From Minisyncoccota bacterium (lineage in GTDB: Bacteria > Patescibacteriota > Minisyncoccia > Minisyncoccales > GWA2-38-27), in NCBI GenBank assembly GCA_028687715.1, contig JAQTZP010000005.1:1-46875 (forward strand): a stretch of DNA of 46,875 nucleotides, written 5' to 3'. This document shows, piece by piece, positions 2,997 through 4,377 of the stretch (the first letter of the stretch is position 1; every line of letters starts with the position of its first letter). Both the position numbers and the translations under genes were made by a program. The notes under the pieces are model-generated. The model was not told the origin of the DNA, made no database searches, and was given only the letters and a program-made list of their open reading frames with translations.

Positions 2997-3542
2997 ATGA
3001 AAGTAGCTGTAGGCTCATTAAATCCAGTGAAAATAAAAGCTGCAGAGTTAGCTTTTAAAGAAGTTTGGCCGGAGAAAGATTGGGATGTTTTATCAACAGA
3101 AGCAGTTTCTGGTGTTTCTAATCAGCCAATGAGCGACAAGGAAGCAGTGCTTGGGGCTAGAAATAGAGCTAAGCAGGCAATAGAAAAAACTCAGGCTGAT
3201 TACGGAGTTGGCATTGAAGGGGGTATTCAAGAGATAGATGGAAGTTATTTTGATTGCGGTTGGATAGTTATTTTAGACAAAGAAAACAATGAAGGGATTG
3301 GTTCAACAATAAAAATGATTGTGCCTGAGAAAATGATCGGCATGATAAAAAAGGGCATAGAGCTTGGGTCAGTAAACGATATTATTTTCAATAAATCAAA
3401 CTCAAAGCAGAATGAAGGCCATTTCGGAAGCATGACTAATAATATTATTACCAGAACTAAAGGGTATAAAGATGGGGTTATTGCAGCTCTATCAAGATTT
3501 ATCAGACCTGATTTATTTGAAGCTTCTAACTGCGAAAGATAA
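2997..3542 (+). CDS. Inosine/xanthosine triphosphatase (DUF84, YjjX-like)
   Basis: A 181-aa member of the DUF84/YjjX family, which hydrolyses non-canonical ITP and XTP to keep deaminated purines out of nucleic acids. Visible features are the N-terminal VGSLNPVKIKA loop that binds phosphate, the VSNQPMSDKEA segment, GARNRA, the acidic GVGIEGG turn, and the Gly-His rich GHFGSMT near the end. Length fits the family. It follows the preceding gene by 6 bases. Its last 31 coding bases form part of the 89-bp sequence repeated at 4289, which shows that the gene at 4336 was originally next in line. Confidence 0.85.
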   Translation: MKVAVGSLNPVKIKAAELAFKEVWPEKDWDVLSTEAVSGVSNQPMSDKEAVLGARNRAKQAIEKTQADYGVGIEGGIQEIDGSYFDCGWIVILDKENNEGIGSTIKMIVPEKMIGMIKKGIELGSVNDIIFNKSNSKQNEGHFGSMTNNIITRTKGYKDGVIAALSRFIRPDLFEASNCER

Positions 3543-3600
3543 AATAAACTAATAATGCATGAGCTTAAAAAAGAAAAGAATAATTATAATCCTTGCCATA
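3512..3600 (+). repeat. 89-bp direct repeat, copy 1
   Basis: Identical by eye to 4289-4377, offset 777 bases. It covers the 3' end of the DUF84 gene, the short spacer, and the first 14 codons of the gene that is intact at 4336; here that second reading frame stops within two codons after the repeat ends. Confidence 0.92.
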
Positions 3601-3606
3601 TCGCAT

Positions 3607-3635
3607 TAAAAAACCGAGATTTCTCTTGGTTTTTT
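3607..3635 (+). terminator. Rho-independent terminator ahead of the NYN gene
   Basis: Arms 3611-3619 (AAACCGAGA) and 3624-3632 (TCTTGGTTT, one G-T pair) with a TTTC loop and a T run. It would isolate the inserted NYN gene from the upstream operon. Confidence 0.65.
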
Positions 3636-3653
3636 ATGTTATGATAAAATAAT

Positions 3654-4196
3654 ATGATTTCTAAATATTTGAAAGGGAAAATTTTAGTAATGATAGATGC
3701 TGCTAATTTGGAAAGTTCTGTGAAGTCTTTAGGTTGGTGGATTGATTATATAAAATTAAGAGATTTATTTAAGGAAAAAGAGTTAGTAGAGATTCGTGAT
3801 TATTGCGTTTATCATAATACAGATAATCAGAATAAATTCTTCACTTTTTTAAAGAAGAATGGGTTTATTTTAATTACTAAGCCATTGAAAGTAATTAAAA
3901 CAGAGGATATAGAGAGAGGAGATATTAGAAAAGCGAATTTTGACGTAGAAATAGCAATTGATGCTATGGAAATGATAAATAAATTTGATACTTTTGTATT
4001 ATTTTCTGGCGACAGCGACTTTGATTACTTGCTAAAGAAAATAAGAGGTAAAAATAAAAATGTTTTAGTAATTTCAAGCAAGCACCATATTTCTAAAGAA
4101 TTAATTGAAAATAGCGATAAGTATATAGATATTAAAAAATTGAAAAATTTAATTAAAAGAGAGAATAAAAGCCCGTCTTTTGCAACGGGCGGTTGA
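3654..4196 (+). CDS. NYN-domain nuclease (DUF88/LabA-like)
   Basis: A 180-aa NYN-domain protein, a PIN-like fold whose known members are metal-dependent ribonucleases. The expected acidic residues are all present: D15 in VMIDAANL, D97 and D103 in FDVEIAIDAM, and D120, D122 and D124 in SGDSDFD. It is a stand-alone domain with a short basic C-terminal tail. It sits in a 688-bp insert between two 89-bp direct repeats. A -10-like TAAAAT at 3645-3650 lies so close to the ATG that a transcript from it would be leaderless or start at M13. The last codons overlap the terminator of a predicted small RNA on the other strand. RNase activity is expected from the family and not shown here. Confidence 0.85.
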   Translation: MISKYLKGKILVMIDAANLESSVKSLGWWIDYIKLRDLFKEKELVEIRDYCVYHNTDNQNKFFTFLKKNGFILITKPLKVIKTEDIERGDIRKANFDVEIAIDAMEMINKFDTFVLFSGDSDFDYLLKKIRGKNKNVLVISSKHHISKELIENSDKYIDIKKLKNLIKRENKSPSFATGG

Positions 4197-4218
4197 TGAC
4201 GAATGATTTCTCATCCGC
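4165..4218 (-). ncRNA. Predicted small RNA convergent with the NYN nuclease gene
   Basis: On the minus strand a near-consensus promoter (TTGACA at 4254-4249, 18-base spacer, TATAGT at 4230-4225) is followed within about 50 bases by a GC-rich hairpin (arms 4190-4185 GCCCGT and 4176-4171 ACGGGC) and then TTTTATT. That gives a transcript of roughly 50-60 nt with no useful reading frame. Its 5' half can fold by ATGA-GAAA-TCAT or by GATGA/TCATC. The 3' end overlaps the last 30 or so bases of the NYN gene in antisense. Promoter and terminator are seen directly; that it is a functional RNA is inference. Confidence 0.5.
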
Positions 4219-4224
4219 ATCTTA

Positions 4225-4254
4225 ACTATAGCAAATCAACATACTCTGTGTCAA
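4225..4254 (-). promoter_or_regulatory. Strong sigma70-type promoter for the predicted small RNA
   Basis: TTGACA, 18 bases, TATAGT reading on the minus strand. It is one of the closest matches to consensus in the window, and no protein gene lies downstream of it on that strand until after the hairpin terminator. Confidence 0.6.
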
Positions 4255-4288
4255 CATATTTTTTATTTCCCCTATTTTTCCACAAGCC

Positions 4289-4377
4289 TTTATTTGAAGC
4301 TTCTAACTGCGAAAGATAAAATAAACTAATAATGCATGAGCTTAAAAAAGAAAAGAATAATTATAATCCTTGCCATA
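4289..4377 (+). repeat. 89-bp direct repeat, copy 2
   Basis: Second copy of 3512-3600. Its 3' part supplies the start of the gene at 4336, and its 5' part is an orphan copy of the end of the DUF84 gene. Confidence 0.92.

Follow-up and report, generated by a model that had tools for sequence, protein, structure and literature searches.

Why should a nuclease gene and a short RNA gene that faces it share a self-contained insert of 688 bp? An initial annotation of the window (the whole stretch of 46,875 nucleotides analysed here) described such an insert, saw an NYN gene and a small RNA gene in it and nothing besides, and proposed that the two move as a unit. The insert (3601–4288) lies exactly between two direct-repeat copies of 89 bp (3512–3600 and 4289–4377; 100% identity across 89 nt), and the NYN gene and the RNA gene are the content of this interval. 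The left copy runs from the end of a DUF84 gene through the intergenic region into the first codons of the gene downstream. The right copy holds the start (4336) of a 160-aa gene, and this start is intact because the repeat includes the first codons of that gene. Excising the cassette together with one repeat copy fuses the neighbourhood, leaving the DUF84 gene followed by the 160-aa gene. Just 5′ of the NYN gene is a hairpin with A and T tracts (3608–3636) that, judged by its sequence, is probably a terminator of upstream transcription. Elsewhere in the window, inverted, near-identical copies of a GC-rich sequence of ~200 bp (1318–1541 and 2260–2519) flank a 227-aa ORF (1626–2309) and adjoin a recombinase-like ORF (94–1251).

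The NYN gene (3654–4196, plus strand) is intact and encodes 180 aa. Its product matches PF01936 at 106.7 bits (2e-30; curated cut-off 24.2) and retains all of the catalytic aspartates with which it had been credited: the acidic residues D15, D97, E99, D112, D120 and D122 are invariant in the aligned relatives. As modelled by AlphaFold (pLDDT 86), the nuclease has an NYN (PIN-like) fold that matches 2qip (VPA0982) and the NYN domains of MARF1. Known NYN domains are RNases, and NYN proteins can be ordinary RNA-processing enzymes. Many Patescibacteria have a different NYN gene, which has no RNA unit and lies between two genes that we take to be rpsO (S15) and pnp (PNPase) (L073, L075, L077, L079, L081, L082 and L083). 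The NYN protein of this rpsO-NYN-pnp arrangement may be a conserved RNA-turnover enzyme.

On the minus strand, the near-consensus promoter reported earlier (TTGACA-18-TATAGT, 4225–4254) is the best of the region, scoring 11/12, and the same element occurs in relatives. It consists of TTGACA (4254–4249), a spacer of 18 nt and TATAGT (4230–4225), with TG before the −10. The predicted small RNA (4163–4218, minus strand), which we call W type, would start an estimated 7 nt past the −10 and measure about 50–55 nt. Its hairpin 1 (4199–4218), absent from the initial annotation, varies in sequence in relatives while its pairing is kept by covariation. The conserved linker CATCAACC (4191–4198) is nearly invariant in A3. 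Hairpin 2, GCCCGTTGCAAAAGACGGGC (4171–4190), is both the terminator and a conserved core that is found in phages too. This is the GC hairpin with a T-rich tail that had been noticed at the end of the nuclease gene: it spans 4190–4171, is followed 3′ by TTTTATTC, and its T-rich tail falls within the final codons of the NYN gene, to which the RNA is convergent. The two-hairpin fold has a z-score of −3.9, and none of 200 shuffled sequences was equally stable. A pseudoknot between CAAC of the linker and GTTG of hairpin 2 was rejected, because GTTG to ATTG changes preserve the stem and lose the pseudoknot pairing.

Is this arrangement peculiar to the window? NYN genes at unrelated places in relatives of the window's genome have the same convergent unit. 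We defined the unit as a promoter followed 28–130 nt later by a terminator hairpin that ends near the gene's stop, and used this one rule for every gene of the fetched loci, whether NYN or not. The unit was present at 72 of 146 NYN genes (a set that includes the unit-less genes of the rpsO-NYN-pnp arrangement, Chlorobiaceae and Alphaproteobacteria) versus 5 of 593 other genes (Fisher p = 4e-52). At all loci, the predicted RNA is antisense to the 3′-terminal part of the predicted NYN transcript, and its terminator stem mostly ends no more than about 12 nt from the stop codon of NYN. The check proposed at the outset, that homologues should share a conserved promoter and a hairpin with covarying pairs, came out in favour of the pair: both occur at many NYN loci, in many Patescibacteria and in some other phyla. 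It is nearly certain that the NYN/RNA pair is real and widespread. The promoter motif by itself (TTGACA/TTTGCTATAMT) was discarded as a marker of NYN genes, being common in these genomes and not NYN-specific.

The RNAs fall into several types. The W type is made of a covarying hairpin, CATCAACC, GCCCGTTGCAAAAGACGGGC and a T tail, and its hosts are Paceibacterota, Peregrinibacteria, Daviesbacteria, Gribaldobacteria and two Omnitrophota draft genomes. The B type (ACTAAACGTG and a hairpin) and the D type (two hairpins joined by a GGGTATTACATCC linker) form larger sets. To measure compensatory change, we counted double-change cells, that is, cells with changes on both sides of a pair. For W, we obtained 52 such cells versus 16 shuffled when the alignment was fitted to the model, and 21 versus 5 in the alignment behind the model, to whose loops Ns were added by hand for register. 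B gave 43 versus 14, with 100% of cells paired, and D gave 47 versus 9; the slid controls collapsed for all three alike. W, B and D are thus three RNA families with strong compensatory pairing.

Covariance models of W (R1), B (R2) and D (R3) were run on 247 genomes of the order, and R1 was also run on 380 genomes of the phylum. The window RNA, whose sequence was among the 8 used for building R1, scored 71.2 bits. Besides the window, 50 of the 53 matches lay at NYN sequence, which was a convergent gene, a fragment at the edge of a contig or a remnant (the remnant at L290 was identified by eye). The three matches that had no NYN, L271 and L316 (30–31 bits) and L297 (47 bits), were not accepted as members and are treated as false or unexplained; L297 is a B-like RNA (1501–1555, in G010:C3) at the 3′ end of rlmN. 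Rfam returned no match at the loci, and when the 128-bp RNA region was used as a DNA query, only chance-level matches came back, because the RNA diverges too fast for such a search. Every locus that we read contained a single RNA unit and no tandem repeats.

There are at least a dozen RNA types, and their distribution tracks the clades of NYN. On a tree of 171 NYN protein rows (SH-aLRT support from a quick search), with RNA types assigned from the RNA alone, the type changed 24 times, against 107 times on average after shuffling. Types D, B, A, O, F and H occupy one NYN clade each, and W shares its group with three related rows of Q type and one NYN that has no recognised unit. Related NYN/RNA units are also present in draft genomes labelled Omnitrophota, Aminicenantes and Actinobacteria (L178, L179, L185, L186, L188 and L195), where they reflect either transfer or misbinned contigs.

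The RNA also occurs in phages. Scanning IMG/VR with an exact pattern identified five phage contigs with the W core, none of which has an NYN gene, although the contigs may be fragments, so that an NYN gene could lie outside them. Three hold complete W RNAs outside called genes (L259, 76.8 bits; L261, 65.1 bits; L258, 56.6 bits). The L259 copy tops every cellular copy even though it was absent from model building, and the L261 RNA is preceded by TTGACT-18-TATAAT. In L257 and L260, only or mainly the linker and hairpin 2 are present. The L257 element (3334–3360) is placed at a phage gene's stop codon, lacks a promoter, hairpin 1 and a T tail, and is possibly a mimic carried on an mRNA. In the viral collection, B, D and A patterns yielded no orphan RNAs, so that the phage orphans found are of W type only; the A pattern was found there on contig L262, where an NYN gene accompanies the A-type unit. 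A phage-borne mimic of an antitoxin RNA has a precedent in the pseudo-ToxI of phage PhiTE (PMC3475682).

What does the pair do? The best reading, and in our judgement a fairly probable one, is that the pair forms a mobile module, of toxin-antitoxin or abortive-infection kind, and that the RNA restrains the NYN RNase. The NYN-fold (PIN-like) endoribonuclease would be the toxin. Its antitoxin would be the short RNA with two hairpins, transcribed from a strong promoter of its own on the other strand and terminating where the nuclease gene has its 3′ end. Once folded, the RNA may bind its own NYN protein and block the active site, as ToxI does on ToxN or as the AbiF RNA does. If the RNA were lost, or depleted during phage infection, free NYN would cut cellular or phage RNA and growth would stop. 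The orphan RNAs of phages could then be decoy antitoxins, and the addictive property of the module could allow a 0.7-kb cassette without a transposase to persist wherever it landed.

Alternatively, the RNA could act as in type I systems, base-pairing as an antisense to the NYN mRNA at its 3′ end (as RatA does on txpA) and lowering nuclease production while leaving the protein unbound. The position of the RNA opposite the 3′ end of the predicted NYN transcript at every locus, with the terminator stem so close to the stop codon, speaks for such a mechanism, and type I systems with a convergent 3′ overlap are known. However, antisense pairing is perfect at any locus whatever its sequence, and it therefore leaves the compensatory changes unexplained, as it does the loops and linkers conserved across genera and the orphan phage copies that have no NYN mRNA adjoining them. 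We consider it quite unlikely. What appears to be selected across loci is the structure of the RNA and not antisense pairing, which points to protein binding.

A toxin and its antitoxin would also be expected to decay unequally, and one-sided loss is what we found. Of 52 loci whose RNA is intact, about 8 have an NYN gene that is broken or vestigial (for example, L318 and L290), and no NYN without an RNA was seen in the B and D clades (Fisher p = 0.002, for two samples drawn differently and with the proviso that broken frames in draft genomes can be sequencing errors). The window's own genome provides an example: in G000:C2 (L004:1691–2350, about 75.2–75.8 kb), a frameshifted NYN gene directly follows a tRNA gene, presumably for tRNA-Glu, and has kept a front hairpin near-identical to that of the window, the RNA promoter and the terminator hairpin. 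One-sided loss is what a toxin with an antitoxin would give.

Could the RNA instead serve a regulatory NYN enzyme that is not toxic, as its substrate or cofactor, for instance in self-regulation of RNA turnover? The rpsO-NYN-pnp relatives in the same genomes do hint at RNA metabolism, but those NYN genes are the ones without the unit. Unit-bearing NYN genes are patchy and mobile, unlike housekeeping genes: B-type NYN proteins are 59–82% identical across families, yet they occur in only 21 of 196 genomes. The orphan RNAs of phages also find no explanation here, and we regard such a role as quite improbable.

The evidence for mobility extends beyond the window. Flanking direct repeats of 25–162 nt (score of at least 20 across the two sides; shuffled maximum, 15) were found at 18 of 108 unit-bearing NYN loci versus 2 of 49 NYN genes without the unit (p = 0.037), and at a score of 30 the counts were 11 versus 0 (p = 0.018). 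The right repeat copy usually starts just outside the RNA promoter, and several right copies hold the start of the downstream gene. Restriction-modification genes insert with long target duplications, forming variable direct repeats on the order of 100 bp (PMC3874152). The repeats at the NYN loci, tens to more than 100 bp long and exact over 89 bp in the window, have this signature. The cassette is mobile, with long target duplications, and the earlier proposal that nuclease and RNA move as a unit thus holds. At two loci (L074 and L198), an intein contains, in frame, both the NYN gene and the unit convergent to it, where a homing endonuclease would usually be. The hosts of these inteins (L074 in G010:C8; L198:580–5868) resemble repeat-rich fibre-type proteins, and L198 has several Hint modules.

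A mobile nuclease gene with a small RNA, twice in the endonuclease place of an intein, resembles the IscB/TnpB pairs in content, and the RNA could in principle serve NYN as a guide to DNA or RNA targets, and so perhaps drive the cassette's homing. The initial annotation had named such an RNA-guided system beside toxin-antitoxin-like and RNA-controlled ones. The latter two fit best, and the RNA-guided part is unsupported because the RNAs have no variable unpaired stretch usable as a guide: we sought one in the W, B and D RNAs and found none, B and D being conserved along their length and the variable part of W lying inside a stem. Known NYN domains being RNases is a further point against guidance, which we hold to be very improbable. 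Finally, it is scarcely credible that the unit is a plain promoter-terminator pair insulating the inserted gene and that its RNA has no function: the promoters are indeed common in these genomes and hairpin 2 doubles as a terminator, but an insulator needs no conserved linker, conserved terminator loop or covarying second hairpin, and it would not make RNA types follow NYN clades or confine the unit to so few other genes.

We also entertained a broader and more speculative picture that goes beyond the toxin-antitoxin module, namely a selfish nuclease-RNA superfamily of more than a dozen co-diversifying pairs, moving without a transposase, whose NYN-RNA complex would itself take part in homing-like integration and whose members would occupy inteins in place of homing endonucleases, act against phages and be countered by RNA mimics that phages encode; we think it unlikely. 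If the pair is indeed an RNA-controlled module, an NYN/PIN-type RNase with an RNA partner would add a protein fold, a gene layout and many unlisted RNA families to what is, to our knowledge, a small set of RNA-neutralised RNases (ToxN-like folds and AbiF). It would do so with many co-diversified pairs, in bacteria with few known defences. The phage biology of Patescibacteria is, as far as we know, mostly unknown, and the phage orphan RNAs would be an entry to testing an arms race there. Co-diversified RNA-protein pairs, mobility and phage mimics would be united in one compact, directly testable module.

How does this module compare with known systems? Among NYN proteins, those of the LabA-like/NYN (DUF88) group, PADLOC NYN (PDLC01154) and HEC-09 share the domain and the catalytic residues with the window protein, and no RNA partner like the window's is described for them in the papers searched. 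The initial annotation knew of no NYN/small-RNA pair of this form; neither Rfam nor the papers searched, a set that leaves most subscription papers and all preprints outside, contained one. The cassette shares with restriction-modification insertions the character of a self-contained mobile pair with long variable direct repeats (PMC3874152), and differs in having an RNA partner instead of a methylase or restriction enzyme. Guide segments like those of IscB/TnpB are absent from the W, B and D RNAs. Type I systems (TxpA/RatA, BsrG/SR4) have a similar convergent layout, in which the RNA overlaps the 3′ end of the toxin mRNA, and the predicted transcripts of NYN and its RNA overlap in the same way. 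Type I toxins are mostly small membrane peptides, and the systems differ further in that the fold of the NYN-linked RNA is itself conserved across loci.

Further parallels are with RNases controlled by bound RNA. In AbiF, a stand-alone RNase-type toxin is neutralised through binding by a ~100-nt ncRNA that has its own terminator (PMC12373285). AbiF/Abi_2 (RCd22; RF03085) is thereby a working precedent for a stand-alone RNase-type protein with an RNA, but its protein is of HEPN type and its RNA is upstream and co-transcribed, whereas the window pairs an NYN protein with a convergent RNA, and an RF03085-type motif was not among the NYN loci, which have no Rfam match. The ancestry of Cas13 has been connected with AbiF-type pairs (PMC12373285), and another RNase-RNA pair would for this reason bear on the origin of RNA-controlled immunity. 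Type III systems (ToxIN, CptIN, TenpIN) likewise pair an RNase with a small structured RNA, meet RNA mimics borne by phages (PMC3475682), and have protein and RNA families that diversify together. Their genes form one operon with a shared promoter, the RNA upstream as tandem repeats with pseudoknots and a terminator between the two (PMC5086642). In contrast, the RNA of NYN is downstream, on the other strand and under its own promoter; it is single-copy and made of plain hairpins, and its protein has an NYN/PIN-like fold instead of that of ToxN, CptN or TenpN. By analogy, we infer that the NYN/RNA module would work like type III or AbiF, with an RNA holding its RNase in check, while not being a member of type III.
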